From an uncultured Clostridia bacterium (GTDB lineage Bacteria; Bacillota; Clostridia; Christensenellales; Borkfalkiaceae): a stretch of DNA of 53,064 nt. This document shows, piece by piece, positions 1,563 through 47,089 of the stretch (within the stretch, counting starts at the first letter, position 1; every line of letters starts with the position of its first letter). Location: NCBI GenBank assembly GCA_947627765.1, contig CANQXA010000010.1:1-53064 (forward strand). Direction: 5' to 3'. A model generated the notes under the pieces. It was not told the DNA's origin. It saw only the letters and a list, made by a program, of their open reading frames with translations, and made no database searches. The translations under genes were made by a program, and so were the position numbers.

Positions 1563-4199
1563 TTACTCGTCTTCCTCGGACATGGTACCGCCCGACGCGG
1601 TCTCATCCTCTGCGGGATCGACAACTTCCGCGTCCTCTGCGGGCTCCTCCGCCTCGCCCTCCGAGAGCTCCTCGGGCGCAAGATCGGCCGCCGTCTCTTC
1701 GGGCGCCGCGACCTCGGCTTCGTCGTCGCGGTCGGTAATGGCGACCGTTGCGACCACGCCGTCTCTCACATTCATGAGGCGGACGCCGCGCGTCGCCCTG
1801 CCGATCCTCGAGATCGCCTCGAGGTGCATCCTGATCACGATGCCGGCGGAAGTCACCATCATCGCGTCATAGAGGTCGCTCGCGAGTTTCATGTTGACGA
1901 GCGCGCCCGTCTTTTCATTGAACACGCCCGCCTTAATGCCCTTGCCCCCGCGCGATTGCAGGCGGTAATCCTCGGGATCGGAGCGTTTGCCGTAGCCGTT
2001 TTCGGAGACGGTGAGGATATCGAAGCCCTCTTTGAGGACGAGCATATCCACGACTTCGTCGCCCTCCGAGAGGGTCATGCCGCGGACGCCCACCGTGCCG
2101 CGTCCCATCGGGCGGACGTCCGTCTCTTTGAAGCGGATGCACTTGCCCGAACGGGAGGCGATCATGATCTCGTCCTCGCCGCCCGTGAACTGCACGGAGA
2201 TGAGCTCGTCGTCCTCGGCGATCTTGATGGCGATCTTGCCGTTCTTCATGATGCGCTCGAACTCGCTCGTCGCCGTCTTTTTGATGACGCCCCGCTTGGT
2301 CGCCATGGCGAGATAGCCCGTCCCGTTCTCGTAGACGGGGAGGATCGCGGCGATCTTTTCGCCCGGCGAGACCTGCAACAGGTTGACGATCGCCCTGCCG
2401 CGCGCCTGTTTGTTCGCCTCGGGGATCATGTACCCCTTCATGGCGTAGACTTTCCCGTAATTGGAGAAGAAGAGGATATTGTGGTGGGTGGAACAGACGA
2501 ACATCTGCTCCACGAAATCGTCTTCCTTGGGGCGGTGGCCCGTCACGCCGACGCCGCCGCGGTGCTGTGCCTTATATTCGGTGAGGGGGATGCGTTTGAC
2601 GTAGCCGCCGTGCGTCATGGAGATGACGACGTCCTCCTCGTCGATGAGGTCCTCGTCCTCGATGTCGCCGTAGTCCACCGAGACCTCCGTCTTCCTCCCC
2701 GAGGGATACTTGCCTTTGATCGCGATGAGGTCGTTTTTGATGATCTGCATCACCCGCGGCTCGTTGGCGAGGATGTCCTGAAGATCGGCGATGGTGGCGC
2801 GGAGCCCTTCGAGCTCCTCTTTGAGCTTCTCCACTTCGAGGGAGGTGAGGCGTTGCAACCGCATCTCCAAAATGGCGTTCGCCTGCACTTCGGAGAGCTC
2901 GAAGCTCTCGGTGAGTTTGGCGCAGGCGGCGTTTTTATCCGCCGATTCCTTGATGATGCGGATCACCTCGTCGATGTTGGCGAGGGCGAGGACGAGCCCC
3001 GAGACGATATGGGCACGCTCCGCCGTCTTATTGAGGTCGAACTTCGTCCTGCGGACGATGACCTCCTTCTGGTGCTCGAGATAATAATAGAGAATATCGC
3101 GCAGGTTGAGATAGCGCGGTTCGGTGCCGTTCTCCACGAGCGCGAGGAGGATGATCCCGTCCGAAACTTGGAGATTGGTGTGCTTGTAGAGCGTATTCAA
3201 GACGACCTGCGCGTTGGCGTCCTTCTTGCATTCGATCACGATGCGAAGCCCTTCCCGCCCCGATTCGTCGCGGATGTCGGAGATGCCTTCGATGCGTTTA
3301 TCCTTAACCATGTCCGCGATCTGCACGATCAGTTGGGCTTTGTTGACCTGATAGGGGATCTCCGTGACGACGATGCGGCTCCGCACGTTGGCGCCCGTTC
3401 CGTGCTCTTCCACTTCGCACTTGGAGCGGATGACAATGTTACCCTGCCCGGTGCGGTACGCCTTGCGGATGCCGCCCCTGCCCATGATCACGCCGCCCGT
3501 CGGAAAGTCGGGGGCAGGAATATAGTCCATAAGTTCGTCGCAGGTGATCTCGGGATCGTCGATCATGGCGATCGTGCCGTCGATGACTTCGGCGAGATTA
3601 TGGGGCGGGATATTGGTCGCCATCCCGACGGCGATCCCGTCCGACCCGTTGACGAGGAGGTTGGGGAAGCGGGCGGGAAGGACCGCCGGCTCCATCTCGA
3701 TGCCGTCGAAATTGGGGAAGAAGTCCACCGTCTCTTTGTCGAGGTCGCGGAGCATCTCGGCGGCGAGCTTGGTAAGGCGCGCCTCGGTATAACGCATAGC
3801 GGCGGGGGGATCTCCGTCCACCGAACCGAAATTGCCGTGCCCGTCCACGAGGGGGAAGTTGATGGAGAAGTCCTGCGCGAGACGGACGAGGGCGTCGTAC
3901 ACCGAACTGTCGCCGTGGGGATGGAATTTACCCATGACGTCGCCGACGATACGGGCGCACTTGCGGTACGCCTTGTCGTTGTAGAGCCCCATCTCGTGCA
4001 TCGCATAGAGGATGCGGCGGTGGACGGGCTTCAAACCATCGCGCACGTCGGGAATGGCGCGGGATTTATTGACCGCCATCGCATAGGCGATGAAGGAGCG
4101 TTTCAGCTCGTCGTTGACCTCGATATCGAGGATCTTTGTCATTTCGAGCGTTTTTTTGAATTCCTCGGTCAGCTCGGGGCTTGTTTCTCGTTTCGCCAT
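1563..4199 (-). CDS. gyrA: DNA gyrase subunit A
   Basis: This is the breakage-reunion subunit of gyrase, 878 residues. The catalytic tyrosine is Y137 in [10 protein letters not shown]. The quinolone pocket [14 protein letters not shown] keeps the wild-type Ser98 and Asp102 (E. coli 83 and 87). The C-terminal beta-pinwheel has QHRGGVG and QSRGGKG as GyrA-box candidates. The last ~50 residues are an acidic tail ending GGTMSEEDE. The ribosome site AAGGAG precedes ATG. It lies downstream of gyrB on the same strand but is separated by about 440 bases of repeats, so co-transcription is uncertain. The tail contains one copy of the GGACATGGTA motif (1578-1587). Confidence 0.97.
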
Positions 4200-4269
4200 A
4201 GTGTCTCCTTGATGATTTTCAACAGATTTGTTTGAAGAATATATTGGGGGAATGCGCCGCTTTGAGCAA

Positions 4270-4545
4270 AAACGGGCATACCATGTCTGAGGTTACGCCT
4301 CACGGACTTCGTATTTCGGGCTCCTTCGGCTTCGTTTGGAACGACGGGGGTGGGCGGCATAAGGATTCGTTCTCCCGTCATTTCGCCCCAACCGAAGTTT
4401 CTAATTGTGATACCAAGGTCGGAACGAGCCGCAGGCGAAGTAGCGGAGCGCGAAGCGCATTCTTTCCTACGTCATTTCGACCAAGCGAGCGATAGCGAGC
4501 GCGTGGAGAAATCTCATTCAAAATAAGGCAGAGATGTCTCGACAA
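4270..4545. repeat. Intergenic repeat mosaic between gyrB and gyrA
   Basis: This non-coding stretch carries pieces that recur elsewhere in the window: CGGACTTCGTATTTCGGGCTCCTTCGGCTTCG, which resembles 18660-18720 and 24225-24260, and ACCAAGGTCGGAACGAGCCG, which resembles 18720-18740. No convincing gene is present. One near copy of the 10-mer motif (TACCATGTCT, 4279-4288) is inside it. Confidence 0.6.
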
Positions 4546-4546
4546 G

Positions 4547-4632: not shown

Positions 4633-4637
4633 TCGCG

Positions 4638-6829: not shown

Positions 6830-8206
6830 ATGGCAAAACAAACGGTCACAATGGAGAAACTTGTCGCCCTCTGCAAGGCGCGGGGGATCATCTTCCCGGG
6901 CAGCGAGATCTACGGCGGCATGGGCAATACGTGGGATTACGGGCCCGTCGGCGTCGAGATCAAGAACAACATCAAGCGCGCATGGTGGAAGCGCTTCGTC
7001 ACCGAGAGCGACAATTCCTACGGCTTAGACGCCGCCATCCTCATGAATTCCAAGGTGTGGGAGGCGAGCGGGCACACCACTTCCTTCTCCGATCCCAAGA
7101 TGGACTGCAAGAAGTGCAAGACCCGTCACCGCGCCGACAATCTCATCGAGGCGCACAGCAAGGGGACGGCGGATCCCGATACCATGTCCAATGAGGAGAT
7201 GGAAAATTACATCCAAACGCACCACGTGTGCTGTCCCGTCTGCGGCGGATTCGACTGGACGCCCATCCGCACGTTCAACCTCATGTTCGAGACGAGCCGC
7301 GGGGTCACCGACGAAAGCCAGAACAAGATCTACCTCCGCCCCGAAACGGCGCAAGGGGAATTTGTCAACTTCCTCAACGTCCAACGTACCACCCGCGCGA
7401 AAGTGCCCTTCGGGATCGCGCAGATCGGGAAGGCGTTCCGCAACGAGATCACGCCCGGGAATTTCATCTTCCGCACCATCGAATTCGAACAGATGGAGCA
7501 CCAGTGGTTCTGCAAGGCGGGCACCGACGAAGAGTTCTACGCCGAATATAAGAAAAAGGCGTTCGACTTCCTCTGCGACCTCGGTTTCTCCCCCGAACAT
7601 CTCCGCTTCCACGACCATGAGAAGCTCGCCCACTACGCGAAAGAGGCGTGCGACATCCAATATCTCTATCCCATGGGCTGGCAGGAGCTCAACGGCGTCC
7701 ACAACCGCACCGATTTCGACCTCACCCGCCATCAGGAATACTCGGGCAAGACGCTCACTTACGTCGATCCCGTGAGCGGCGAAAGGTACATTCCCTACGT
7801 CATCGAATACTCCATCGGCGCCGACCGTCTCATGCTCGCCGTGCTCTCCGAGGCGTACGACGAAGAGACCTTGGAGGGGGGAGACGTGCGCACCGTCCTC
7901 CGCCTTCATCCCGCGGTCGCGGCGTACAAAGCCGCCGTACTGCCCCTCCAAAAGAATCTCGCCCCGCACGCGAAAGAGCTCTGCGCCAAGCTCAAAAAGC
8001 TGTATTCCGTCACCTACGACGACGCGGGCTCCATCGGAAAACGCTATCGCCGCCAAGACGAGATCGGCACGCCTTATTGCGTAACTATTGACTTCGATAC
8101 TTTGGAAGACGGAACGGTTACCGTGCGCGATCGCGATACCATGTCTCAAATCAGGCTCTCGGAAAGCGATCTGATCGCCTTCCTCGCCGAGAAGTGCGCC
8201 TTCTGA
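6830..8206 (+). CDS. glyS: Glycyl-tRNA synthetase (single-chain alpha2 type)
   Basis: This class II synthetase charges tRNA-Gly; 458 residues. Motif 2 reads RNEITPGNFIFRTIEFEQMEH. The glycine-pocket signature IEYSIGADRLMLAVL is near the C-terminal part of the core, followed by an anticodon-binding domain. A zinc-finger insertion has ligands in DCKKCKTRHR and HHVCCPVCGG. The start ATGGCAAAACAA is chosen because AAGAAGGGAACGAAT precedes it; an in-frame upstream start would overlap the promoter region. It is the only plus-strand gene in the gyrA-alaS stretch apart from one small ORF. Confidence 0.96.
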   Translation: MAKQTVTMEKLVALCKARGIIFPGSEIYGGMGNTWDYGPVGVEIKNNIKRAWWKRFVTESDNSYGLDAAILMNSKVWEASGHTTSFSDPKMDCKKCKTRHRADNLIEAHSKGTADPDTMSNEEMENYIQTHHVCCPVCGGFDWTPIRTFNLMFETSRGVTDESQNKIYLRPETAQGEFVNFLNVQRTTRAKVPFGIAQIGKAFRNEITPGNFIFRTIEFEQMEHQWFCKAGTDEEFYAEYKKKAFDFLCDLGFSPEHLRFHDHEKLAHYAKEACDIQYLYPMGWQELNGVHNRTDFDLTRHQEYSGKTLTYVDPVSGERYIPYVIEYSIGADRLMLAVLSEAYDEETLEGGDVRTVLRLHPAVAAYKAAVLPLQKNLAPHAKELCAKLKKLYSVTYDDAGSIGKRYRRQDEIGTPYCVTIDFDTLEDGTVTVRDRDTMSQIRLSESDLIAFLAEKCAF

Positions 8207-10132: not shown

Positions 10133-10195
10133 GGTCTTACCTCTTTCTATTGATGTTTTTCTTTTTTGAAGCCGTATCTCGGACATGGTATGCCC

Positions 10196-10966
10196 CTACG
10201 CGGTCCCCTTGGGGATCTGGCGGCCCGTGGCGTCGATCCTGTAATTCTCCCTGTAAATGAGCTCCCCGATGGGAACGAACTCGAATCCGTTCGCGCGCAA
10301 AGTGGAGATGACGATGGGAAGCGCCTCGGCGGTGTGCAATCCGTTGTTGTGCATCAGGATGATACTGCCGCTCTTCGTCCGCTCTACGATCCGCGCCGCG
10401 ATATCCGAAGCCGAGAGATTTTTCCAATCGAGGGAATCGACGTCCCACTGGATCGGGTAGAGCCCCATCGCTTCCGCGGTATCGATGAGCAAGTCGTCGT
10501 AGTCGCCGTAGGGCGGGCGGAAGAGGGTAACTTCCCTGCCCGTCACTTGTTCGATCGCCGCCTTGGAGGTCTCCAGCTCCTTTTTGATCTCGGTCTCCGA
10601 GAGGCGGGACATATACGAATGCGTGGCGCTGTGCGTTCCCATCTCGTGCCCGCCGTCCGCGATCTTTTTGCAGTAATCGGGATATTTTTCCACCCAAAAC
10701 TGCACGGCGAAGAAGGTGACGTGCACCTTTTCCGCGGCGAGCGTTTCGAGGATCGAATCGGTGTGATCCACGCCCCATGCGCAGTCGAAGGAGAGGGCGA
10801 CTTTGTTGTCTTCCCGCTCTACGCTGTAAATGGGAAGGGAGCGGGCGCCCGTCCAATAGACTTCCTCCGCCCCCGCGGCGTTTGCCGTGATCATGCCCGC
10901 TCCCAAGAGCAGGGCGACGCCCGCCGCCAGCGCGACCGATTTGAGCCGCACGGTGATAAATCGCAT
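10196..10966 (-). CDS. Polysaccharide deacetylase, PdaB-like
   Basis: This 256-residue protein has an N-terminal signal/anchor helix (residues ~8-28) and a NodB-homology domain. The metal/catalytic motifs are ALSFDCAWGVDHT (the variant first motif seen in the PdaB branch instead of TFDDGP), HSATHSYMSRLS, RPPYGDYDDLL and WDVDSLDWKN, with a final LMHNN. PdaB-type enzymes act on cell-wall glycans and in Bacillus are sporulation-linked. GGAGGTGTTCT precedes ATG. A GGACATGGTA copy lies 6 bases past the stop codon. Confidence 0.88.
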   Translation of the reverse strand: MRFITVRLKSVALAAGVALLLGAGMITANAAGAEEVYWTGARSLPIYSVEREDNKVALSFDCAWGVDHTDSILETLAAEKVHVTFFAVQFWVEKYPDYCKKIADGGHEMGTHSATHSYMSRLSETEIKKELETSKAAIEQVTGREVTLFRPPYGDYDDLLIDTAEAMGLYPIQWDVDSLDWKNLSASDIAARIVERTKSGSIILMHNNGLHTAEALPIVISTLRANGFEFVPIGELIYRENYRIDATGRQIPKGTA

Positions 10967-11849: not shown

Positions 11850-11939
11850 CTTTCTCTTTTGCGGCGGCCGCCTTTCAAGGGACCGCAGTCTATCGGGATT
11901 CTTCGGGGGGAGGGGTTTCCTCGGCGTGTCTGCCGCCCC

Positions 11940-15705: not shown

Positions 15706-16538
15706 GCGGGCAGGACCGTAAATCCGCGGCATTCCAGCCAGCGGAAGGCGAGGGGGAGCCATGCCCTTATGGAGCGGTTGGCTTCTGCGCCCTCTAAGTT
15801 GTCCGACGTCTCGATGTCGGCGACGCTCAGCCCGTGGGGACCGCGTTCGAAGACGTGCAGTTCGACGTCTACCCCCGCCGCAAGACAAGCCTCCGCATAG
15901 CGGAGCGCACCGATCACGGGGACAACGTCGTCGTTTCCCGTATGCCAAATAAAGGCGGGAGAAGACAGCCCGCTCACCCGCGTCTCGAGGGAAAGGCGGG
16001 CACGGAGGGCGTCGTCGCCCCCCGAAATGACCTCCGCCGTGCCCTCATGGGTCTTGCCGCGCTCCGTCGTCAGAACGGCGTAGGAGAGGATCGCCGCGTC
16101 GGGGCGGACGAGCCCTTCCACGCAGGCGGGAAGCTCGGGAGCGTCGTACAGCGTCGCAAGCATTGCGGCGAGATGTCCCCCCGCAGAGAAGCCCACAACG
16201 CAGACATGGTGCCCGTCTAAGCCGTATGTCCCGCTCTCTTTGCGGATGTACGCCATCGCCATCGCCGCCTCCGCAAGGGGGACGGGGTACGCCGCGTTGA
16301 CCGTATATTGAAGCTGAAAGACGGCGTAGCCCTCTGCAAGAAAGCGGAGGGAGACGGGTTCGCCCTCCCGCTCCGAGATCATGCCGTAGCCGCCGCCCGG
16401 AATCACGAGCACGGCGGGACGGATCTTCGGCGTGTTCTCCGTAATGGAACTGCGCGCATAGACGGTGAGATACCCGCCCCCGTTGACGCCGCGCGGCAGG
16501 GAAAAGTATTCGTAAAGATCGATCGTTTTGTAATCCAT
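15702..16538 (-). CDS. Alpha/beta hydrolase (BD-FAE/esterase type)
   Basis: This 278-residue protein has an oxyanion-hole loop LVIPGGGYGMIS, nucleophile elbow GFSAGGHLAA (Ser), acid in WHTGNDDVVP (Asp) and catalytic His in RGPHGLS. The order and spacing fit small carbohydrate/acyl esterases related to acetyl-xylan esterases. No signal peptide, so it is cytoplasmic. GGAGGCAAGGCT precedes the selected ATG. It lies 50 bases downstream of rpsI, beyond that gene's terminator. Confidence 0.85.
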   Translation of the reverse strand: MDYKTIDLYEYFSLPRGVNGGGYLTVYARSSITENTPKIRPAVLVIPGGGYGMISEREGEPVSLRFLAEGYAVFQLQYTVNAAYPVPLAEAAMAMAYIRKESGTYGLDGHHVCVVGFSAGGHLAAMLATLYDAPELPACVEGLVRPDAAILSYAVLTTERGKTHEGTAEVISGGDDALRARLSLETRVSGLSSPAFIWHTGNDDVVPVIGALRYAEACLAAGVDVELHVFERGPHGLSVADIETSDNLEGAEANRSIRAWLPLAFRWLECRGFTVLPA

Positions 16539-28851: not shown

Positions 28852-31080
28852 TCAAGCGAAGTGGACGCCGCACGCGGAGAGCAGGTTCCAATGGCTGAAT
28901 ACGACGACGCAGACGAGGGAAATGGTCGACATGATCTTGATGAGAATGTCGAGGGAGGGGCCGACGGTGTCCTTCAACGGGTCGCCGACGGTATCGCCGA
29001 CGACGGCGGCGTCGTGCACGGCGTCGTAGCCCTCTTCGCCCTTCTTCACGCCCTCGACGCCGCCCGATTCGATGTACTTCTTGGCGTTATCCCACGCGCC
29101 GCCCGCGTTGCCCGTATAGATCGCGAGCATGATCGCCGAGAGCGTCGCGCCGATCAAAATTCCGCCCACGAAGCCCGCGCCGAACAGGAATCCGCACACC
29201 ACGGGAATGGCGATCGCGACGACGGAGGGGACGATCATCTGCTTCAAGGCGCCCTGCGAGGAGATCGTGACGCACTTCGTCGAATCGGGATCCTCTTCGC
29301 CCGTCAAGATCTTCGGGTTCTCGCGGAACTGTCTGCGGACCTCTTCGACCATCTTCCTCGCCGCCTTGGCGACGGCGTTGATGAGCATTCCCGAGAACAG
29401 GAAGGGGATCGCCGCACCCAAGATCGCGCCGACTATGATGTCGCCGCGGATGATGTTCAAAAGAAGATTGGCGCCGTCCTGCAAGAATCCTTCGCCTGCG
29501 GCGTATAAGTAGCTCGACATCATGGACATGGTAGCGAGCGCCGCGCTCCCGATCGCAAATCCCTTGCCGATCGCGGCGGTCGTATTGCCGACGGAATCGA
29601 GCTTATCGGTGATCTCGCGCACGTCTTCGTCGAGCATACTCATCTCGGCGATGCCGCCCGCGTTGTCCGAAATAGGGCCGTAGGTATCGACGGAGACGGT
29701 CGCCGCGACGAAGGAGAGCATCCCCATCGCGCCGCAGCCGACGCCGAACATCCCGCCGATCGCAAAGCTCGCAAAGATCGCAACGCCCAAGATGACCACG
29801 GGGAGCATGGTGGAGATCATACCCGTCGCCATGCCCTGTGTAATGGTCAGCGCCGCGCCCTCCTTGCTCGCCTCGGAGATGCGCCGCGTGGGTTTATAGT
29901 CGTAACTCGTGTAATACTCGGAGACGATGCCGATGAGAATGCCCGCCACGATGCCGATCGCCGCGCACACCCAAGGGGTAACGGGCCCGATCGAGAGCTT
30001 CGCCGCCTTCAAGACTTCCGCCGTCTCCCCCTTGAAGAGGAAGATGGATAAAAGACATCCGCCGACCAGCGTCACGCCCGCGGAGATCCACGTCGCGAGA
30101 TTGAGTTCCATGTGCGGGTTGTTGGAAAGTTTGGGTTTCAGAAGGGGATAGGAGATGCCGATCACGCACCCGATGAGCCCGATGCCCGCAAAGATGAGCG
30201 GGAAGAGCACCATCTTCTGCAAGATCGAAGGCGTCAGCGTGCCCGCCGCGCTGTGGACAAAGAGCTCGATGGCGAGGATGACCGTCGCCATGATCGACCC
30301 GATGTAGCTCTCCAAAAGGTCGGCGCCCAGCCCCGCGACGTCGCCCACGTTGTCGCCCACGTTGTCTGCAATGGTCGCGGGGTTGCGGGGGTCGTCCTCG
30401 GGAATGTGCGCTTCCGTCTTCCCGACGAGATCGGCACCCATGTCCGCGGCCTTGGTGTAGATGCCGCCGCCCACGCGGTTGAAGAGGGCGATGATGGAAC
30501 AGCCGAGCGCGTAACCCGAGAGGATGATGGAGAGGTTGTACCACTGTTTGGTGATGGGATTCTGATGTTCGACGACGATCTCCGCAAGGTTTGCGCCGCC
30601 GACGTTGATCATGCCGCCGCCCCACGCGAAACAGCAGTAGACGATGACCGCGCCGAGCAGGGCAAAGCCCGCCACGCAAAGACCCATTACCGAACCGCCG
30701 CGGAAGGCGACTTTGAGCGTCTTGCCGATGTTGCGGCTCTCGTTGGCGGCGTTGGTGACGCGCACGTTGGCGTAGGTTGCGATCTTCATGCCGACGAAGC
30801 CCGCCGTTGCGGACATCACCGCGCCGATGATGAAGGCGACGCCCGCCTCCCACGCGATGAAGAGCCCTAAGACGAGGGCAACGCAAGCCGCGATGATCGC
30901 AACGATCTTGTACTCGTAGAAGATGAAGGCGTTCGCGCCCTCACGGATCTTCCCCGCGATGTACTGCATCCGCTCATTCCCCTCTTTGAGCTTCTTCGTG
31001 AGGTAGAAATTGAGCGCCGCATACCCGAGCCCGAGCACCGCTGCGAACATCACGATGATCATGAGTAGGTTGAGGTTCAT
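28852..31080 (-). CDS. hppA: Membrane-bound ion-pumping pyrophosphatase
   Basis: This 742-residue, ~16-helix pump hydrolyses PPi and moves H+ or Na+ out of the cell. Catalytic motifs: GGGIYTKAADMGADLVGK, DDPRNPATIADNVGDNVGD and the late DTVGDPLKDTVGPSLD. GNTTAAIGKG carries Ala where K+-independent enzymes have Lys, so it should be K+-dependent. Whether Na+ or H+ is pumped cannot be decided here. The start follows AAGGAGCGAAAT. A palindrome (31092-31105) in the leader hints at regulation. Confidence 0.96.
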   Translation of the reverse strand: MNLNLLMIIVMFAAVLGLGYAALNFYLTKKLKEGNERMQYIAGKIREGANAFIFYEYKIVAIIAACVALVLGLFIAWEAGVAFIIGAVMSATAGFVGMKIATYANVRVTNAANESRNIGKTLKVAFRGGSVMGLCVAGFALLGAVIVYCCFAWGGGMINVGGANLAEIVVEHQNPITKQWYNLSIILSGYALGCSIIALFNRVGGGIYTKAADMGADLVGKTEAHIPEDDPRNPATIADNVGDNVGDVAGLGADLLESYIGSIMATVILAIELFVHSAAGTLTPSILQKMVLFPLIFAGIGLIGCVIGISYPLLKPKLSNNPHMELNLATWISAGVTLVGGCLLSIFLFKGETAEVLKAAKLSIGPVTPWVCAAIGIVAGILIGIVSEYYTSYDYKPTRRISEASKEGAALTITQGMATGMISTMLPVVILGVAIFASFAIGGMFGVGCGAMGMLSFVAATVSVDTYGPISDNAGGIAEMSMLDEDVREITDKLDSVGNTTAAIGKGFAIGSAALATMSMMSSYLYAAGEGFLQDGANLLLNIIRGDIIVGAILGAAIPFLFSGMLINAVAKAARKMVEEVRRQFRENPKILTGEEDPDSTKCVTISSQGALKQMIVPSVVAIAIPVVCGFLFGAGFVGGILIGATLSAIMLAIYTGNAGGAWDNAKKYIESGGVEGVKKGEEGYDAVHDAAVVGDTVGDPLKDTVGPSLDILIKIMSTISLVCVVVFSHWNLLSACGVHFA

Positions 31081-31545: not shown

Positions 31546-33292
31546 TGAGCGTTTCGAGGCTCTCGCGGAGCTCCTTGGGAAGACGGTCCCCAAACTGCTC
31601 GTAGTAACCCGCGATCTCGTCCGCTTCCTTGCTCCAACGCGCCTTGTCTACATAGAGAATGCTCTCGAGGGTGGCGCGGGAGAGATCGAGCCCTTCGAGG
31701 TCGATGTCCTTCGCGTAAGGGACGTACCCGATCGCAGTCTCCTGCGCGTCCACCGCGTTCTGGCAACGCTTCAAGATCCACTCCAAAACGCGCATATTGT
31801 CGCCGAAACCGGGCCACAGGAACTCGCCGTTTTCGTCCTGACGGAACCAGTTGACGTTGAAGATCTTGGGCGGATTCTTGATCTTTTTGCCCATTTCGAT
31901 CCAATGCCCGAAGTAATCCGCCATATGATACCCTGCAAAGGGCTTCATCGCCATGGGATCGTGACGGAGCACGCCCACTGCGCCCGTCGCGGCCGCCGTC
32001 GTCTCCGAGCTCATGATCGAGCCGACGAATACGCCGTGGTTCCAATCGCGGGACTGGTAGACGAGCGGGGTCGTCGTCGCCCGTCTGCCGCCGAAGATGA
32101 TCGCGTCGAGGGGCACGCCCTGTTTGGAATCGAACTCGGGGGAGAGGCAGGGGCAATTCACGGCGGGAGCGGTGAATCTCGAATTGGGATGGGCGGCCTT
32201 CACGCCGCTTGCGGGCGTCCACGGGTTGCCGAGCCAATCGATGAGATGATCGGGCGCGGGTTTCGTGAGCCCTTCCCACCAAACCGTGTTGTCCTCGGGA
32301 TTGATGGCGACGTTGGTGAAGATGGTGCCCTTCCTCGTCGCGGCGAGGGCGTTAGGATTGCTCTTTTCGTTGGTGCCGGGCGCGACGCCGAAGAAGCCGT
32401 TCTCGGGGTTGACCGCCCAGAGTCTGCCGTCTTCGCCCACGCGGATCCACGCGATGTCGTCGCCCACGCATTCCACTTTATAGCCCTTTTCGAGGTAGTG
32501 TTTGGGAGGGATGAGCATGGCGAGGTTGGTCTTCCCGCAGGCGGACGGGAAGGCGGCGGCGACATAGTGCTTTTCGCCGTTCGGATAAGTCACGCCGAGG
32601 ATGAGCATATGCTCCGCCATCCAACCCTCTTTCTTGCCGAGGTAGGAAGCGATCCTGAGCGCGAAGCACTTCTTGCCGAGCAGGACGTTGCCGCCGTATG
32701 CCGAGTTGACGGAGATGATGGTATCGTCCTCGGGGAAGTGCATGATGTAGCGCTTCTCGGGATCGACGTCGCACTTGCAGTGGAAGCCCTTGATGAAATC
32801 CCCGTCCTCGCCGAGCTGACGGTAGCATTCGGTGCCGACGCGGGTCATGATCGCCATGTTGAGGACGACGTAGATGGAGTCGGTGACTTCCACGCCGATC
32901 TTGGAGAAGGGGGACCCGATCACGCCCATCGAATAGGGGATCACGTACATGGTACGCCCCTTCATCTTCCCGCGGGCGATCTCGCCGCACAGTTTATACG
33001 CCTTTTCGGGGTCCATCCAATAGTTGATGGGGCCGGCGTCTTCCTCTTTCTTGCAACAGATGAACGTGCGGTCTTCGACGCGCGCCACGTCGTTTTGCGC
33101 GGTGCGGTGATAGTAGCAGCCGGGGAGTTTTTCCTGGTTGAGTTCGATCATCTCGCCCGTTTTTACGCCTTCCGCGCGGAGGGCGGCGAGCTGTTCTTCG
33201 CTGCCGTCGATCCAGACGATCTGATCGGGTTGGGCGAGCGCGGCGCTCTTTTCGACGAATTCGAGAACTTTCCGGTTGGTGGTGAGAGCCAT
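31526..33292 (-). CDS. pckG: Phosphoenolpyruvate carboxykinase (GTP)
   Basis: This 588-residue enzyme interconverts oxaloacetate + GTP with PEP + CO2 + GDP. The PEPCK P-loop is AFPSACGKTNLAM, followed by VGDDIAWIRV. GRTMYVIPYSMG, NSAYGGNVLLGKKC and the GTP-class FGGRRATTTPLVYQ identify the GTP rather than ATP family. The start follows TAGGAGGTAACAAATAAAA. In anaerobes it often works toward oxaloacetate, consistent with PPi-linked energy metabolism next door (hppA). Its 3' end has been tandemly duplicated. Confidence 0.96.
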   Translation of the reverse strand: MALTTNRKVLEFVEKSAALAQPDQIVWIDGSEEQLAALRAEGVKTGEMIELNQEKLPGCYYHRTAQNDVARVEDRTFICCKKEEDAGPINYWMDPEKAYKLCGEIARGKMKGRTMYVIPYSMGVIGSPFSKIGVEVTDSIYVVLNMAIMTRVGTECYRQLGEDGDFIKGFHCKCDVDPEKRYIMHFPEDDTIISVNSAYGGNVLLGKKCFALRIASYLGKKEGWMAEHMLILGVTYPNGEKHYVAAAFPSACGKTNLAMLIPPKHYLEKGYKVECVGDDIAWIRVGEDGRLWAVNPENGFFGVAPGTNEKSNPNALAATRKGTIFTNVAINPEDNTVWWEGLTKPAPDHLIDWLGNPWTPASGVKAAHPNSRFTAPAVNCPCLSPEFDSKQGVPLDAIIFGGRRATTTPLVYQSRDWNHGVFVGSIMSSETTAAATGAVGVLRHDPMAMKPFAGYHMADYFGHWIEMGKKIKNPPKIFNVNWFRQDENGEFLWPGFGDNMRVLEWILKRCQNAVDAQETAIGYVPYAKDIDLEGLDLSRATLESILYVDKARWSKEADEIAGYYEQFGDRLPKELRESLETLKANCEN

Positions 33293-33494: not shown

Positions 33495-34436
33495 TTACAG
33501 ATCCGCCACGGTGACGTATTCTCCCGTATCCGCGGATTGAAAGACAACGTAGAGCCCTACCATGTCCGAGAACGGGGTCGTCGGAACGAAACAAGCGTGC
33601 GGTTTCATCTCTTCGGGAAGACCCTCTTCCGCCGCGACGCAGAGGTATTTCGGCTTGCCGCTCTCGTAAATTACGCCGAGAAGGACGCCGTCCGCCTTCA
33701 CCCATTCGGAAGCGGGGAAGACGCCGAGGAGCCGTTCGTCTTTTTCGAATTTGCGGAAGGCCTCTTCGAGCTTTTGTCGGACGGAGCGGTAGTATGTAAG
33801 GCTTCCTGCCCCAAAGAGGAAGGGATGGGCCGCATCCTCCCTTGCGTCCTTTTCCTCCGCCGCATTGCCGCCGCCCGCAGTTTCATCATCTCCATCACCT
33901 TGATAGTAGTCGGCTTCGGCGATCGCCTCGTCGTCGTACGCCCCCTCCTCGCGAAAGGGTTCCTCCGCGGGCTCCTCCTCGGGCAGGGGCGGCATGGGCG
34001 CGCGGGGGACGTTGTTGGGCGAAAAGGTGGGAAGCTCGGTGGGAGGAAGGGGGACGGCAGGGCGGCTCTTCCCCGAAAAGGCGGCAAGAAGCGTGTGATA
34101 ATCGGCCTCGGCGAGCCCGCAGCTCCCGAACGCGACCGCTTCCGCTTCCCCCTTCAAAAAGACCAAGAGGGCGGCGAATCCGTCTTTGAGGGAGGGCGCC
34201 TTGGGGATCCTTAACGACGAACTCCCTTTCAGTTCGACGACAAAGATCTCTCCGCCGACGGAGAGGGCGAGCGCGTACCGCCCCTCCCGCACGGGCGCCA
34301 CGCCCAAGAGCCGCGGCATGACCGTAAGTTCCTCCCCCAACCGCTCGACGTACACCGCTCCCGAGAGGGCGCCGCCGTCCGCGGAAAATCCCTTCTTCAC
34401 CTGTTTCAAGACGCAGACCCGTTTTTCAAATCCCAT
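33495..34436 (-). CDS. Hypothetical protein with acidic linker
   Basis: This 313-residue protein has an N-terminal domain (~1-125) starting MGFEKRVCVLKQVKKGFSADGG. A Pro- and Glu/Asp-rich linker (~130-200) follows. The C-terminal domain (~205-313) has LTYYRSVRQKLEEAFRKFEKDERLLGVFPASEWVKAD. No signal peptide. I do not recognise the family. AAGGAGTTTTTTT precedes the ATG. One GGACATGGTA copy falls in the last 25 codons (33558-33567). Confidence 0.75.
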   Translation of the reverse strand: MGFEKRVCVLKQVKKGFSADGGALSGAVYVERLGEELTVMPRLLGVAPVREGRYALALSVGGEIFVVELKGSSSLRIPKAPSLKDGFAALLVFLKGEAEAVAFGSCGLAEADYHTLLAAFSGKSRPAVPLPPTELPTFSPNNVPRAPMPPLPEEEPAEEPFREEGAYDDEAIAEADYYQGDGDDETAGGGNAAEEKDAREDAAHPFLFGAGSLTYYRSVRQKLEEAFRKFEKDERLLGVFPASEWVKADGVLLGVIYESGKPKYLCVAAEEGLPEEMKPHACFVPTTPFSDMVGLYVVFQSADTGEYVTVADL

Positions 34437-34502: not shown

Positions 34503-34970
34503 TTATGCCGAATGGGGGGGATTTTCGAAAAAGACCACCTTGACGCCCTTCCGCACCGCGTAGTCCACGGTATACGCCGCGCCGCCGCGGTCCTTCGTGC
34601 GGTAGGCAAAGAGAAGGTCGCACTTATCCACCATATAGCGGTTGCGCGCGAGCAGGCAGTTGACGTAGTAGTGCTCCGAGAGGACGGTGACTTCGTCACA
34701 CTCCTTCAAGAGTTCGCGGTATTTTTTCTTCTCCTCGCGGGGGAAGCCGTACGCCTGCTGTGCATAGGGAATGCACGCCTCAACGCGGACATGGTACCGC
34801 CGTTTTAGGTCTACAATACATTCGAGCGCGGCGAGATCGAAGCCCGTCGCCATGCCGCAGAGGAAGCTGTCGCACCCGCCGCGGATGAGTTCTTCGAGGC
34901 GGTCGTGGAGGGCGTTGCGGTCGAAATCGGCGGGGAGATCGCGGTGGCCTGTAAGCGCACAGCGCATCAT
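34503..34970 (-). CDS. SLOG-superfamily protein (YpsA/DUF1273-like)
   Basis: This 155-residue protein starts MMRCALTGHRDLPADFD, the nucleotide-binding opening of SLOG proteins. GCDSFLCGMATGFDLAALE follows (second signature), then an alpha/beta Rossmann-like remainder. It is related to Bacillus YpsA (DUF1273), linked to cell division and stress, though the ligand is not settled. ATGA overlap with the rsmG stop (34967-34970) plus AAAGGAGGGACCCGCT means translational coupling. Confidence 0.85.
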   Translation of the reverse strand: MMRCALTGHRDLPADFDRNALHDRLEELIRGGCDSFLCGMATGFDLAALECIVDLKRRYHVRVEACIPYAQQAYGFPREEKKKYRELLKECDEVTVLSEHYYVNCLLARNRYMVDKCDLLFAYRTKDRGGAAYTVDYAVRKGVKVVFFENPPHSA

Positions 34971-39633: not shown

Positions 39634-40563
39634 ATGATCTTTCAAGCAAAATCGGTGGAGGAAGCCATCGAAGAGGGGCTCAAGGAGCTCGCGATCCAAC
39701 GGGAGGACGCGGAGATCACCGTCCTCGAAGAGGGGAAAAAGGGCGGACTGTTCGGCATCGGGCACGTGGACGCCAAAGTGGAGATCACCGCAAAGGTGAA
39801 AAAGACGGACGGAGAGAGAGCGGTCGCCTTCCTCGAAGGACTGCTCCCCCTGATCGGGATGGACGCCAAGCCCGAACTTTCGGGGGAGGACGAGAAGATC
39901 GTCATCGTGCTCAGCGCCGAATCGACCAAGAACGTCATCGGAAGGAGAGGCGAGGTCATCGACGCCATCCAGACGCTCGCGGGCGCCGTCGCCAACACGG
40001 GCAGAAAGGAGTATAAGCGGGTCGTCGTAGACTGCGAAAATTACCGCGAAGAGCGGGAAGAGACCTTGAAACGGCTCGCCGCCAAGCTCGCCGCCAAAGC
40101 GGTGCGGCTGGGGAAGCGGGTCCGCCTCGAGCCCATGAATCCCTACGAGCGCCGCATCATCCACTCCGCGCTCGTGGACAACGAAGAAGTCACCACCAAG
40201 AGCGAGGGCAAGGAGCCTACCCGCTACGTCGTCATCACGCCCAAAAATCTCCGCCCTTCGGACAAGAGACCGAGGGACAACCGCGGCGGCAGGGGCGGCA
40301 AGTACGATAAATACGGGAAGAACAACCGCGGCAGGGAAAAGTACGGCGAACGCAAGTCCTACCCGAAGCGCGAACTTCCCTCCGAAGCGACCCCCGAGAC
40401 GAGCGGAACGAGCATCTCGAGAGGGGGCACGCCGGGATTCCGCAAGGGCGGATTTTCGGGATTCTTCGGGACCTATCTCGGCAAGGCGGAAGACGAAGAA
40501 AAACCCGCCGAGACGAAATCGGAGGGTACCATGTCCGAAGATGAGGGCAAGGAAAACGAATAA
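39634..40563 (+). CDS. jag: Jag/SpoIIIJ-associated RNA-binding protein
   Basis: This 309-residue protein has an N-terminal Jag domain (IFQAKSVEEAIEEGLKEL, GGLFGIGHVDAKVEI), a KH domain (VIGRRGEVIDAIQTLAGAVAN) and an R3H domain (RVRLEPMNPYERRIIHSAL). A Gly/Arg/Lys-rich low-complexity tail ends GTMSEDEGKENE. KhpB/Jag proteins bind RNA and affect cell wall growth. The gene follows yidC as usual. A GGACATGGTA copy (reverse, 40527-40536) sits in the tail. Confidence 0.95.
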   Translation: MIFQAKSVEEAIEEGLKELAIQREDAEITVLEEGKKGGLFGIGHVDAKVEITAKVKKTDGERAVAFLEGLLPLIGMDAKPELSGEDEKIVIVLSAESTKNVIGRRGEVIDAIQTLAGAVANTGRKEYKRVVVDCENYREEREETLKRLAAKLAAKAVRLGKRVRLEPMNPYERRIIHSALVDNEEVTTKSEGKEPTRYVVITPKNLRPSDKRPRDNRGGRGGKYDKYGKNNRGREKYGERKSYPKRELPSEATPETSGTSISRGGTPGFRKGGFSGFFGTYLGKAEDEEKPAETKSEGTMSEDEGKENE

Positions 40564-42224: not shown

Positions 42225-42231
42225 GGGAAAG

Positions 42232-42314: not shown

Positions 42315-42337
42315 ATATTCGCGAAAAAAAGCGGAAC

Positions 42338-42592: not shown

Positions 42593-44653
42593 TTGAGCAA
42601 AACGGTAAAAGGGATCATCGTCGCCGTGCTCGTGCTCGTTCTCGGGATCGGGATCTATTTCTTTGTCACCACCTATTTACGCAACGGAAAGGAGATCGAC
42701 CAGAGCGAGTTTTTCGAACGTATCGAGGACGAACGCGCCATCCGCGGCGAAGACGGGCAGATCATCGAGGAGCGCGGGAAGTACACCGACGCACAGCAGT
42801 TCGTCAAGATCCATGTGGACGGCGTGCGCATCTACGGCTATACCTCGGCGAACGCGCGCAACTATGCTTTCTGGGCGGATACGACGATGGGGCAGAACAG
42901 TATCCCCCTCAACGAAAAGATCGAGGAGTGGACGCAGCTCTTGAAGGAGCAGGGCGTCGAGCTCGTCATCTCCGCCGCCGATCCCAATGCGGGGTCGGGC
43001 TGGGGCAACTTCCTCTACATCGCGATCCTCGTGCTCGGCGTCGTCATGTTCTTCGTCATTTTGCGGATGACGAGCGGCGGAAGCGGCAAGATCATGAACT
43101 TCGGCAAGACCAAGGCGCGCGTAACGACCAATATCAAAGTGCGGTTCTCGGACGTCGCAGGCGCGGAAGAGGAGAAAGAGGAGCTCGCCGAAGTGGTGGA
43201 GTTCCTCAAAAATCCCAAAAAGTTCTCCGACCTCGGCGCGAAGATCCCCAAGGGGGTCCTCCTCGTAGGCCCTCCCGGGACAGGGAAAACGCTCTTCGCC
43301 CGCGCCGTCGCGGGGGAGGCGGGCGTGCCCTTCTTCTCCGCCAGCGGTTCGGATTTCGTCGAGATGTATGTGGGCGTCGGCGCTTCGCGCGTGCGCGACC
43401 TCTTCGATCTCGCCAAGCGCAACCAGCCCTGCATCATCTTCATCGATGAGATCGACGCCGTGGGACGTCAGCGCGGCGCAGGGCTCGGCGGCGGTCACGA
43501 CGAGCGCGAGCAGACCCTCAACCAGATCCTCGTCCAAATGGACGGCTTCGAGACCAACGAGGGCGTCATCGTCATGGCGGCGACCAACCGCGCCGACATC
43601 CTCGACAGCGCTCTGCTCCGTCCCGGCCGCTTCGACCGCCAGATTTACGTCCACCTGCCCGATGTTAAGGGGCGTGAACAAATATTGAAGGTACACGCGC
43701 GCAACAAGCCGCTCGCACCCGACGTCAACTTTAAGGTCATCGCGCGGATCACGAGCGGGTTCTCGGGCGCCGACCTTGCCAACCTTCTCAACGAGGCGGC
43801 GATCCTTGCCGCCCGCGCGGGCAAGCCGCTCATCGGCAATCTCGAGCTCTACGAGGGGATCAACAAGGTCATTATGGGTCCCCAAAAGAAGAGCCGCGTC
43901 GTCACCGAGGCGGATAAGAAGTGCACGGCGTACCATGAGGCGGGCCATGCCATCCTCGCCAAGCTGTGCGAGCACAACGACAACGTGCAGGAAGTCTCCA
44001 TCATTCCCCGCGGCGCGGCGGCGGGTTACACGCTCACCCGCCCCGAGACGGACGACAACGACATGACCGTCAACAAGCTCAACGACTTCATCTGCATGGC
44101 GCTCGGCGGAAGAGTTGCGGAGGAGATCGTCATCCACGACGTCTCCGCGGGTGCGTCCAACGACATCCAAAAAGTCACCCAAATGGCGCGCAAGATGGTC
44201 ACCGAATGGGGGATGAGCGAACGGCTCGGTCCCATCGCCTACGGCAACGACGGGCCCGTCTTCATCGGCAGGGATTTCGAACAGCGCAACACCTACTCCG
44301 AAGAGACCGCCGGCATCATCGACGAGGAGGTCAAGGCGATCGTGCAGAAGGCGTACGACCGCGCGAAGAAGCTCCTCCTCGAAAACCGTCCCATCCTCGA
44401 CAACATGGCGCGCGTGCTCGTGGAGCGCGAGACCATCTACACCGCCGAGGTGGATATGCTCATGAAGGGCGCCTCGTATAAGGACGTCCTCGCCTACATG
44501 GAGGACCACGACAAGACCTCGCCCGACAATCCGTTCGGAAAGGTCGTGACGGAATCGGCGCCCACCATGCCCGCGGAGGAGCCCGCAAAACCGCAAGATC
44601 CGCCCGCTGAGAGCGGAGAAGACCAAAACGACGCGCCCCATGACCGTGAATAA
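42593..44653 (+). CDS. ftsH: ATP-dependent zinc metalloprotease FtsH
   Basis: This 686-residue protein starts at TTG (AAGGAGATAAAC ahead). Helix 1 ~ residues 7-26, extracytoplasmic part, helix 2 ~141-158. AAA+ domain: Walker A GPPGTGKT (226-233), Walker [34 protein letters not shown]. Protease zinc site HEAGH and the later conserved Asp region. Degrades misfolded membrane proteins. It has an acidic C-terminal tail. Upstream tilS/hpt are missing; the oriC-like region takes their place. Confidence 0.96.
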
Positions 44654-44741
44654 CGGCACGGGCGCGGACATGGGTAGGCTGTAATTTCTTCGGGGCGCAT
44701 AGAATTTTTGCGTCCCGAACAAAACGGGGAGGGGATGAAAA

Positions 44742-45632
44742 ATGGCAAAAGGGATCGGAAGAGGGCTCTCTGCATTGTTTGAGGGGGGCGACGCCTACCG
44801 TGCGGCGCTCGGTCCCGCCGTGCAGGAGAGCGCGCCGTCCGAAGTCCCCCTTTCCAAAATATTTCCCAATCCCGCACAGCCGCGCAAGACGTTCGACGAA
44901 AACGCGCTGAATGATCTTACCAACTCCATCCGCGAGCACGGCGTCATCTCGCCGCTCGTCGTCAACCGCAATCCCGACGGGACCTTTCTGATCATCGCGG
45001 GCGAACGCAGGTACCGCGCGGCGATCCGCGCAGGGCTCGAGCGCGTCCCCGTCGTGATCCGCGAACTCGGCGAGAAGGAGATCCAGGAGATCGCGCTCAT
45101 CGAAAATTTACAGCGGGAGGACCTCAACCCCATCGAGGCGGCGTACGGCATGAAGCGGCTGATGGAGGAGCATCACCTCACGCAGGAAGTGCTTGCGGAG
45201 CGCATCGGGAAGAGCCGCCCCGCCATCGCAAATACGTTAAGACTGCTCACTTTGTCGGACGAGGTCGTGGACATGGTACGGTCGGAGAAGCTCTCGGCCG
45301 GTCATGCGCGCACGTTGGTCCCCGTAAAAAAGGAACAGCAGGCGGCGATTGCGCGGGAGATCATCAAGGAAGGCTGGTCGGTGCGGGAAGCCGAGCGCGC
45401 GGTCAAGCAATTCCTCAATCCGCCCGAAGTGCTCGCCAAGACGAGGGAGCGGAAGAACGCCGTATCGAGCGCCGAGCTCAAACATCTCGTCGAGCGGCTG
45501 CGCCTCACCTTCCGCACAAAAGTCTCCCTCATCGGGACGGAGAAGAAGGGCAGGATCTACATCGACTACTACACCCGCGACGATCTCGAGCGCATTTCGG
45601 AGATCCTCGACCTCATCGACAACATTCATTGA
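44742..45632 (+). CDS. parB: Chromosome partitioning protein ParB (Spo0J)
   Basis: This 296-residue protein begins MAKGIGRGLSALF. The CTP-binding boxes are NPAQPRKTFDENALNDLTNSI and GERRYRAAIRAG, then IALIENLQREDLNPIEAA. The helix-turn-helix is LTQEVLAERIGKSRPAIANTLRLL. C-terminal dimer helix ends the protein. parA is not next to it (88-base gap to ftsH, containing a GGACATGGGTA copy), unlike most genomes. Its targets are the parS sites at 42.3 kb. Confidence 0.95.
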   Translation: MAKGIGRGLSALFEGGDAYRAALGPAVQESAPSEVPLSKIFPNPAQPRKTFDENALNDLTNSIREHGVISPLVVNRNPDGTFLIIAGERRYRAAIRAGLERVPVVIRELGEKEIQEIALIENLQREDLNPIEAAYGMKRLMEEHHLTQEVLAERIGKSRPAIANTLRLLTLSDEVVDMVRSEKLSAGHARTLVPVKKEQQAAIAREIIKEGWSVREAERAVKQFLNPPEVLAKTRERKNAVSSAELKHLVERLRLTFRTKVSLIGTEKKGRIYIDYYTRDDLERISEILDLIDNIH

Positions 45633-45642
45633 CGAAAACGAC

Positions 45643-45679
45643 AAGGAGCCGCCCCGAAGCAATTCGGGGCTTTCATATG
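45643..45679 (+). promoter_or_regulatory. Hairpin between a Shine-Dalgarno and the start codon
   Basis: AAGGAG (45643-45648) is followed by an 8-bp stem GCCCCGAA / TTCGGGGC (45651-45670) with a GCAA loop, then TTTCAT and ATG (45677). Without the hairpin the spacing is too long; with it folded the distance becomes normal. It may also act as a weak terminator for parB. Confidence 0.5.
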
Positions 45680-47089
45680 GAATTTCGGGAATTCGACCGT
45701 ACGGACCAACACTGCTTTGCACCCTATTTCGAGGCGCAGAAACTGCACATCGCGGATTTTTCCCGCGCCTTCCTCTTCATGTGGCAGAAGGCGCTCAAAC
45801 CCAAGTACGCCATCGTGGAGAACTGCCTCGTGCTGAAAGAGATGTACGCGGGCAAGTGCTACTTCCACTATCCGCTCTCCCGCACGGGGGACAGAGAGGA
45901 GGAGACGCGCGCGATCGCCGCCCTCGAAGATCTTTGCCGCGACCGCGGCGAACGTCTGCACTTCACAAACGTTCCGAAGAGCCGCATTACGGACATGGTA
46001 TGCCGCTACGGGACCGATGTGCTCGTCAGCAACCGCAGAAAGTGGCGGGATTACCTCTACCGCGCCGAAGATTTCAAAGAATACGCGGGAAGCGGGTATG
46101 CGGGGCAGCGGAACCACGTCAGAAAATTCAAGAAACTCTACCCCGATTGGCGGTTTTCCGAAGCCTCTCCCTCGGACATGGGTGCCGTGGAAGAGTTCTT
46201 ACACCGCTATGAGGCGGTACAAAGGAGCAAGGAGAACAGGATCGCCGAAGAGGAGATGGACGAAGTCTATGCCCTTCTGCCCCACCTCGAAGGGCTCGGG
46301 CTCAAAGCGGGCATTCTCACCGCGGGCGGGGAGATCATCGGCTTCTCGGCGGGCGAGCTGTGCGGCGACATGATGGTCATCCACATCGAAAAGGCGCTCC
46401 GCGGCTACGAGGGCGCCTATCCCACGCTGGCGCAGGAGTTTGCGCGCGCGTTTGCGGGCGATGCAAAGTACGTCAACCGCATGGACGACGCCGGCGATCT
46501 CGGGCTGAGGAAGTCGAAATTGCAGTACCGCCCCGCAGAGATCGTGGATAAGTACAATGTCACCCCGCGGCGTCCCATCGACCTTCTCTCGTCCCTCCCC
46601 GTCGTAAAGAGCGAGAGACTTGTCCTGCGCGCCGTGGAGGATGGGGACGTCCTCCGCTATGCCGCGCTCGCGGGCGACGTCGTCCGCAACCGCTATTGGG
46701 GGTACGATTGGCGGGCCGACCACACCTCTCCCGCGCCCGAAGTATTCTTAAAGGACGCGCGCGAAGACTTTGCGGGGCGGAGGGAAGTCCCGCTCGGGAT
46801 CTATTTGGGGCAGGAGCTCGCGGGGGAGGCCGTCGTGCACCGTTTCGGGTACCGCGGGGAGGCGGAGATCGGCGTACGGCTCTTCGAAGAGTACGAAGGG
46901 CGGGGGATCGCGGCAGAGGCGGTCCGCGCGTACACCGATCACGCGTTCTCGAATTGGGACCTCGGGCGCATGGAAGCGAAATGTTTCCGCGAGAACGAAC
47001 GCTCGCGCAGGATGCTCCTTTCTGCGGGGATGCGCGAATGCGGCGCGGACGGGACGTATTTCTACTTTTTCCGCACGCCCGAGATGTAA
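45677..47089 (+). CDS. Fusion of a DUF2156/LPG-synthase-like domain and a GNAT acetyltransferase
   Basis: This 470-residue protein. N-terminal ~1-295 (FREFDRTDQHCFAPYFEAQKLHIADFSRAFLFMW, RKWRDYLYRAEDFKEYAGSGYAGQRNHVRKFKKLYP) resembles the DUF2156 acyltransferase domain found in aminoacyl-lipid synthases. C-terminal ~310-470 is a RimJ/RimL-type GNAT (SERLVLRAVEDGDVLRYAAL, GYRGEAEIGVRLFEEYEGRGIAAEAVRAY, ENERSRRMLLSAGM). Both halves are acyl-CoA/aminoacyl-transfer folds; substrates unknown. It follows parB by 44 bases. Confidence 0.8.
   Translation: MEFREFDRTDQHCFAPYFEAQKLHIADFSRAFLFMWQKALKPKYAIVENCLVLKEMYAGKCYFHYPLSRTGDREEETRAIAALEDLCRDRGERLHFTNVPKSRITDMVCRYGTDVLVSNRRKWRDYLYRAEDFKEYAGSGYAGQRNHVRKFKKLYPDWRFSEASPSDMGAVEEFLHRYEAVQRSKENRIAEEEMDEVYALLPHLEGLGLKAGILTAGGEIIGFSAGELCGDMMVIHIEKALRGYEGAYPTLAQEFARAFAGDAKYVNRMDDAGDLGLRKSKLQYRPAEIVDKYNVTPRRPIDLLSSLPVVKSERLVLRAVEDGDVLRYAALAGDVVRNRYWGYDWRADHTSPAPEVFLKDAREDFAGRREVPLGIYLGQELAGEAVVHRFGYRGEAEIGVRLFEEYEGRGIAAEAVRAYTDHAFSNWDLGRMEAKCFRENERSRRMLLSAGMRECGADGTYFYFFRTPEM

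Follow-up and report, generated by a model that had tools for sequence, protein, structure and literature searches.

The described systems closest to the element reported here are the uptake signal sequence (USS) of Haemophilus influenzae and the DNA uptake sequence (DUS) of Neisseria. Known uptake signatures work with machines of the type IV pilus family. USS lie on both strands, in and between genes, and have both of their A/T tracts on one side of the core; DUS are 10–12 bp long and lack A/T tracts. Chi, KOPS (FtsK-orienting polar sequences), matS and parS are also genome-wide and act at the DNA level; they are shorter and often palindromic or polar, with Chi sites measuring 5–8 bp. The excerpted literature names the minor pilin ComP as the receptor, and the minor pilin ComN as a predicted receptor, for known uptake signatures. 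As excerpted, PMC7811141 describes uptake-type genome signatures for two bacterial families and gives the USS an inner core GCGG with AT tracts and a mean spacing of about 1 kb, and PMC2397512 calls the neisserial DUS rare in the accessory genome. Here we report a dispersed motif of about 46 bp in a 53,064-nt stretch (the window) of contig CANQXA010000010.1, from the Clostridia assembly GCA_947627765.1 (the home genome, G000; 1,464,869 bases in 46 contigs). With a probability of roughly 0.4, we read the motif as a lineage-specific, USS-like signature of self DNA that may be kept by sequence-biased transfer through a receptor yet to be recognised.

The motif resembles the H. influenzae USS in its directional core, its essential inner and tolerant outer core, its A/T tracts and its apparent origin by point mutation (PMC7811141, in excerpt), and it too occurs on both strands in genic and intergenic DNA. 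It differs in that its sequence is unrelated, its A/T tracts lie on both sides of the core, its density is lower (175 matrix sites in 663.5 kb overall), and it sits in Clostridia, where an uptake pilus was not found in most carriers examined. With the DUS and its dialects it shares over-representation, variation among relatives and kilobase-scale spacing (PMC2397512 and PMC3630211, both in excerpt). Unlike them, it spans about 46 bp with A/T tracts, and novel genes carry as many sites as others, where the excerpt of PMC2397512 has the DUS rare in the accessory genome; the ComP receptor has no known counterpart here, no search by name having been made. The motif is like Chi, KOPS, matS and parS in being a genome-wide, DNA-level element and unlike them in being long, asymmetric and unpolarised.

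An earlier sequence-only reading of this DNA had picked out a 10-mer, GGACATGGTA, as strongly over-represented in both orientations, and the counts bear this out. The window holds 10 exact copies against 0.03 expected from dinucleotide shuffles (0 of 100 reach 10). The whole home assembly holds 133, divided into 63 forward and 70 reverse, and the reversed-letter control occurs three times (1 forward, 2 reverse). That reading had staked its claim on the genome-wide count departing from a Markov expectation. In 453 kb of the home genome we counted 60 copies where an order-5 Markov model expects 5.0, far above expectation, and among 10-mers with at least 10 copies in this sample GGACATGGTA has the largest excess. 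Strong, both-strand, genome-wide over-representation of the kind seen in USS- and DUS-type signatures is therefore present.

We found GGACATGGTA to form the core of a longer motif, which is asymmetric and directional and spans about 46 bp. Conservation extends past the 10-mer in aligned exact copies. The longer form proposed earlier, CTCGGACATGGTAYSCCC, was correct as far as it went and too short, as the signal spans about −19 to +25. In order, the motif consists of an A/T tract, YYKC, GGACATGG followed by TA or GT, a C-rich stretch, a second A/T tract and SGTCT. On the 5′ side the consensus is A/T-rich at −19 to −16, with GA at −14/−13, C at −8 and YYKC at −4 to −1; from the core on it reads GGACATGG, TA or GT, S, C-rich at 12–15, T-A/T-T at 16–18 and S-G-T-C-T at 21–25. 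It was derived against a codon-position-aware background and, in addition, from 56 intergenic or off-phase copies, a set pre-filtered at a flank score of at least −6, which favours the consensus. With the flanks as an independent yardstick, core changes at positions 0, 1, 2, 5 (to C) and 9 keep the motif flanks; with changes at positions 3, 4, 6, 7 and 8 (few copies per variant in either case) the flanks are mostly gone, so C-A-T-G-G appears to be a nearly invariant inner core within a tolerant outer one. GGACATGGGT is an accepted core variant (41 copies, flank z 16). A core, an extended motif and an essential inner core, as in USS- and DUS-type signatures, are all present in terms of conservation, not of function.

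A matrix spanning −20 to +25 was built on 82 exact cores from the home genome and two relatives, G033 and G009, against a codon-phase background (G, C and L numbers are our handles for genomes, contigs and loci). At scores above 10, the 453-kb sample of the home genome contains 124 sites (control 1); G033 and G009, sampled over 200 kb apiece, contain 27 and 28 (controls 0 and 0). All three genomes also supplied matrix cores. The relatives G035, G001, G007 and G005 yield 0 or 1 per 100 kb, as do their controls. In an independent flank test on all 79 named loci outside matrix building, unselected for sites, 18 of 28 exact cores had a flank score above 0, against 3.1% of random positions, and so had 18 of 26 GGACATGGGT cores. 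L042, a stretch of G009 by its matching coordinates, was excluded from this test and from the consensus set. Letting the matrix refine freely over 54 columns made it drift towards codon periodicity, and that version was dropped. No alternative core with the same flanks, that is, no dialect, stood out in 100 kb each of G035, G001, G007 and G005.

The matrix also allowed the positions listed earlier to be sorted. All ten exact copies exist, one of them at 7180 instead of 7190. Seven of the 12 near copies score above 8 (4279, 8137, 16202, 21066, 25093, 32945 and 46174); the other five are lower, with 11454, 17781, 3306 and 44666 at 3.7 to 6.8 and 30436 at −5.2. A one-mismatch match at 38652, absent from that list, scores −1.8, and a motif site at 44563 (−) had been overlooked. 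The lack of copies beyond 47 kb means little, as just 6 kb lie there.

Contigs C1 and C6 (160 kb) were excluded from the density, orientation, spacing, retention, amino-acid identity, codon and home-versus-relative gene comparisons because both are almost without the motif and without the genome's own repeats. As the earlier reading had it, copies lie in and between genes and in several frames: the 60 exact copies of the home sample divide into 23 sense, 25 antisense and 12 intergenic, and the 82 from the home genome, G033 and G009 into 28, 37 and 17, respectively. Among the 48 genic copies of the home sample, 38 are in one common codon phase, and other phases occur as well. The suspicion that GTA is rare yet used where the 10-mer encodes D-M-V was well founded: in home-genome counts based on a simple gene caller of our own, GTA makes up 1171 of 14,191 valine codons (8.3%) but 23 of 34 in D-M-V. 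Codon bias or protein motifs as sole cause, which the earlier reading had named as the way its claim could fail, do not fit copies on both strands and between genes with conserved flanks. Home-genome matrix sites above 10 number 97 antisense, 50 sense and 27 intergenic or other, so that degenerate genic sites are about twice as often antisense as sense, unlike the exact copies (25 versus 23); our guess is that this reflects coding tolerance.

Per 100 kb, conserved genes hold 25.1 sites, genes for which the sampled relatives offer no homologue hold 23.7 (these 'accessory' genes being judged on partial genomes), and the DNA outside genes holds 33.4. Adjacent sites share orientation in 82 of 164 pairs, and without strand polarity a KOPS-like role is unlikely, as had been supposed. 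Close neighbours are scarce. At scores above 6, the home genome has 14 neighbours within 500 bp against 29 expected (P 0.0005), and G033 and G009 together have 3 against 9 (P 0.013); in the home genome the avoidance holds at cut-offs of 10 and 15 (P 0.0005 and 0.007).

We next consider the distribution of the motif among relatives. The best 80 relatives by gyrA are metagenome-assembled Clostridia/Bacillota, many from rabbit samples by name and some of them Candidatus Gallimonas. Counts of GACATGGTA range from 2 to 397 across 61 genomes of the genus, and 13 genomes carry at least 30 copies per Mb (sizes rounded). In a gyrA tree of 30 genomes, one clade of 11 (support 98/100) contains ten genomes at 34–198 copies per Mb and G012 at 2, and the other 19 genomes have 1–22. 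Among the 31 genomes outside the tree, G066 (126), G075 (37) and G072 (32 per Mb) stand out. In 24 genomes from other families of the order the 10-mer occurs 0–7 times, near control. When a viral collection was scanned for CGGACATGGTATGCC, 19 stretches matched, each of them once, which we judged to be chance.

Sites turn over quickly. Of the home sites, G033/G009 keep 3 of 10 at orthologous positions, G012 keeps 1 of 49 and G035/G001/G007 keep 0 of 6; of the G033/G009 sites, the home genome keeps 1 of 4 and G012 none of 11. Pooled, 4 of 14 are kept in motif-rich relatives versus 1 of 66 in motif-poor ones, with only 10, 49 and 6 of 158 home sites, and 4 and 11 of 46 G033/G009 sites, being alignable. 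Some few places persist throughout the genus. The site-dense and site-poor classes of the dusB-like, gyrA-stop and consensus analyses were set by site density in the same loci and are thus circular. In the dusB-like gene, which we take from its peptide to encode a tRNA-dihydrouridine synthase, all 14 site-dense orthologous loci have an intact core near the gene start, as do 3 of the 17 site-poor ones, background identity being equal in the two classes. Around the gyrA stop (within 250 bp), 14 of the 19 site-dense loci and none of the 42 site-poor ones carry a site, with 2.6 expected. Mean core identity is 0.82 to site-dense loci (20 sites) and 0.56 to site-poor loci (15 sites), against backgrounds of 0.74 and 0.70. 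Other sites vary across loci, being kept in 5/5, 4/6 and 3/4 cases and lost in others (0/14 and 0/6).

Measured against G012, amino-acid identity falls from 0.68 farther off to 0.54 at adjoining codons and 0.42 at the motif codons themselves (n=60, P 4e-7). The DNA signal may override the protein, or it may settle at permissive protein positions. Ortholog alignments have some gap inside the 46 columns in 432 of 1083 cases; in the printed alignments the gaps are short or lie in poorly alignable flanks, and there is no motif-sized insert. The sites apparently arose by substitution, not insertion, in coding and intergenic DNA alike, which is the origin expected of a USS- or DUS-type signature.

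The earlier reading had left the choice between a protein-binding, a DNA-uptake and a nucleoid signal. We favour the uptake-type reading slightly, because of the build of the motif, its origin by substitution, its fast turnover and its spacing; it is opposed by the missing pilus and the full density in novel genes. In the mechanism we propose, a protein would bind the motif as DNA passes between cells, motif-bearing fragments would be taken in preferentially, and these would pass the ComEC channel and recombine with the help of DprA; with biased intake and recombination, copies would spread by biased transfer (molecular drive). Of 37 genomes examined in the genus, 35 have ComEC (PF03772), as have 54 of 61 when other families are counted in, and DprA (PF02481) was detected in 25 of 25, so the pair expected of a USS- or DUS-type system is present. 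As the receptor, the usual type IV pilus is ruled out in 10 of the 13 motif-rich genomes, and an unrecognised surface receptor must therefore be assumed. That uncultured gut Clostridia have a pilus-independent, sequence-specific form of DNA exchange or self-recognition, with a receptor that reads the 46-bp signature, is a more tentative proposition.

A number of observations weigh against the uptake-type reading. ComEC and DprA are just as present in motif-poor species. Among the 13 motif-rich genomes, searches for the PF00437 ATPase (E up to 1e-15) and for PilC (PF00482) came up empty in ten (G000, G002, G009, G029, G033, G066, G072, G075, G078 and G080, among which G066 and G075 are 79% and 81% complete), so that the pilus-family machinery expected of USS- and DUS-type carriers was seen in G024, G062 and G083 (one ATPase only). 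Both pilus families are present in 5 of 8 examined genomes with about 6 or fewer copies per Mb (in G012, G035, G036, G064 and G084, not in G006, G007 and G068). ComEA was not recognised in 25 genomes with the HHH_3 profile (PF12836), whose strong matches sit in open frames of 724–828 aa and whose weaker ones sit in frames of at least 402 aa. No VirB4-like AAA_10 (PF12846) was found in the 13 motif-rich genomes, and weak matches alone occur in G006, G007 and G071. Novel genes are as dense in sites as conserved ones, so the DUS trait of being rare in accessory DNA is not seen. The avoidance of neighbours is weaker in G033 and G009 at cut-offs of 10 and 15 (P 0.08 and 0.12), the low identity at motif codons may be partly due to sites settling at permissive positions, and no same-species genome pair fit for measuring recombination was found.

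Nearly as likely, and still doubtful, is that a nucleoid or chromosome-organising protein particular to this lineage binds the motif, with selection for a site every few kilobases irrespective of strand or gene. The length of the site, the A/T tracts on both sides of the core, the similar density in conserved, novel and intergenic DNA and the scarcity of close neighbours would all suit such a protein, as would the failure to find an uptake pilus in most motif-rich genomes. A search of 25 genomes from the genus, G000 included, detected no HU/IHF (PF00216, E up to 1e-5), while the same search detects it in 9 of 14 control genomes; such an absence, if true, is unusual for bacteria, and another factor may account for chromosome packing. 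Motif-poor species lack HU as well, however, so its absence does not track the motif, and retention of 4 of 14 sites between motif-rich species is fast turnover for a structural site. Nor did a candidate protein emerge: none of PF03772, PF00437, PF12836, PF00482, PF00216, PF12846 and PF02481 covaries with the motif, and no reader protein was found among them. A comparison for covarying genes set 1.2 Mb of G012 against 500 home proteins of at least 70 aa outside C1 and C6, with roughly 30% of G012 and 44% of the home sequence outside its reach. Pfam on 20 of the 500 gave mostly housekeeping, transport or no family, the DNA-related ones being an FtsK-gamma protein and endonuclease I only. As a separate observation, L022:9186-10562 encodes a 458-aa protein in which Pfam finds an FtsK gamma (DNA-reading) domain but no FtsK motor.

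Other explanations fare less well. Self-marking against a nuclease, in which motif-bearing DNA is spared or sent to recombination, as with Chi, and motif-less DNA is degraded, would agree with a signal that is genome-wide and position-free and with its uneven presence within one genus, as seen for defence or repair systems; we think it improbable, as the motif is far longer than Chi and has A/T tracts, and neighbours show no orientation preference. There is a slim chance that it is a type IV pilus uptake signature still working in some species and decaying in pilus-less ones. Pilus genes are scattered through the genus, hence several losses are likely, the build is USS-like, and the genome with the most copies, G083 (198 per Mb), has both the pilus ATPase and PilC; yet the pilus-less G000, G033 and G080 (107–115 per Mb) exceed the pilus-bearing G024 (77) and G062 (34), and the five motif-poor genomes with pilus genes have just 1–6 per Mb. 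Promoters, mobile repeats, polar motifs and coding artefacts are all unlikely. GGAC at position 0 and SGTC at 21–24 are spaced like the elements of promoters for extracytoplasmic function (ECF) sigma factors, and an ECF-like promoter would comprise GGAC, a 16-bp spacer, CGTC and an upstream A/T tract; we consider this very unlikely, since 48 of the 60 exact copies lie within genes on either strand and 4 of the 12 intergenic ones point at a co-directional gene, which is not the upstream placement of a promoter. Two last readings, that the copies are left over from a mobile short repeat or that they reflect a protein motif combined with codon bias, are already largely refuted and hardly credible. 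The genome does carry other short intergenic repeats, most genic copies share a codon phase, and gaps do fall within the motif columns of ortholog alignments; none of these gaps is motif-sized, though, copies occur on both strands, in other phases and between genes, GTA is concentrated in D-M-V, and the peptides at the sites differ from those of G012. Units of miniature inverted-repeat transposable elements (MITEs) or repetitive extragenic palindromes would insert chiefly between genes, as nearly all the other repeats of this genome do, and the exact copies are mostly genic.

Should the pilus-independent system proposed above exist, genome-wide signatures of the uptake type would have arisen independently a third time, outside Pasteurellaceae and Neisseriaceae; among the matches listed in the open-access literature there was no report of a comparable signature in Clostridia. 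A Clostridial signature, mostly without the usual pilus, would point to either a new mode of self-DNA recognition or a chromosome-wide binding site of a new class. With so marked a difference among species of a single genus, genome comparison could reveal the responsible gene.

The sites of the window are collected in Table 1. Window genes recognised by Pfam include gyrA, gyrB, alanyl- and cysteinyl-tRNA synthetase, a proton-pyrophosphatase, a GTP-type phosphoenolpyruvate carboxykinase (PEPCK) and FtsH, and Rfam at gathering thresholds gave four tRNAs in the window and nothing else. At 20097 the site peptide is ADMV in the home genome and PEKK in the motif-poor G012. The match at 32945 is probably coincidental, because its peptide, RTMYV, is identical in G012.

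Table 1. Motif sites in the window, with full-motif matrix scores; exact cores are GGACATGGTA.
Feature	Span	Strand	Core and position	Context	Score
Full motif	1558..1603	+	exact, 1578	antisense in gyrA 3′ end, 15 bp from stop	35.7
Full motif	4263..4308	-	AGACATGGTA, 4279		29.8
Full motif	7164..7209	-	exact, 7180		21.3
Full motif	8121..8166	-	AGACATGGTA, 8137		17.2
Full motif	10161..10206	+	exact, 10181	intergenic	40.6
Motif	16182..16227	+	AGACATGGTG, 16202		11.0
Full motif	20081..20126	-	exact, 20097	sense in alaS-like gene	30.2
Motif	21046..21091	+	GGGCATGGTA, 21066	antisense in cysS-like gene	14.0
Weak motif	25073..25118	+	GGGCATGGTA, 25093		9.7
Motif	29504..29549	+	exact, 29524	antisense in H+-pyrophosphatase gene	15.6
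Motif-like, probably coincidental	32925..32970	+	GTACATGGTA, 32945	antisense in PEPCK gene	14.7
Full motif	33542..33587	-	exact, 33558		30.4
Full motif	34767..34812	+	exact, 34787		35.1
Full motif	40511..40556	-	exact, 40527	antisense in 3′ end of jag/khpB-like gene	36.8
Full motif	44547..44592	-	GGGCATGGTG, 44563	antisense in ftsH-like gene	20.0
Full motif	45249..45294	+	exact, 45269		20.5
Full motif	45971..46016	+	exact, 45991		27.3
Full motif	46154..46199	+	GGACATGGGT, 46174		16.5

Other repeated words of the genome were considered as relatives of the motif and rejected: CCTCAGAATGA, ACCCCCCTACC, CCACGGAGGGGG and GGACTTCGTA are separate families, intergenic in 18/18, 17/17, 13/13 and 20/25 cases, respectively. 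The window has intergenic repeat clusters at 11895-12137, 18473-18675, 24242-24484 and 31202-31314, MITE-like mosaics of the CCTCAGAATGA, CCGAAGAATCCC, ACCCCCCTACC, CCACGGAGGGGG and GGACTTCGTA families that are partly common to G009. Further strongly repeated words, for example CCCCGACAGCGT and AGCGTCACTTCC in G001 and GTCATTTCGACC and GAGAAATCTC in G005 and G007, look like dispersed repeats.

The two home-genome contigs set aside above, C1 (L202-L206, 100 kb) and C6 (L209-L211, 60 kb), have 1 and 4 motif sites and none of the genome's intergenic repeats. They are nearest each other in tetranucleotide composition, with C1 almost as near to C2, and possibly come from another species of the genus, that is, are misbinned. 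On contig C7 of the home genome, L023 and the first part of L024 form a stretch of about 30 kb whose genes have weak homologues or none among the relatives sampled; it includes two DUF4127 proteins and several glycoside hydrolases.

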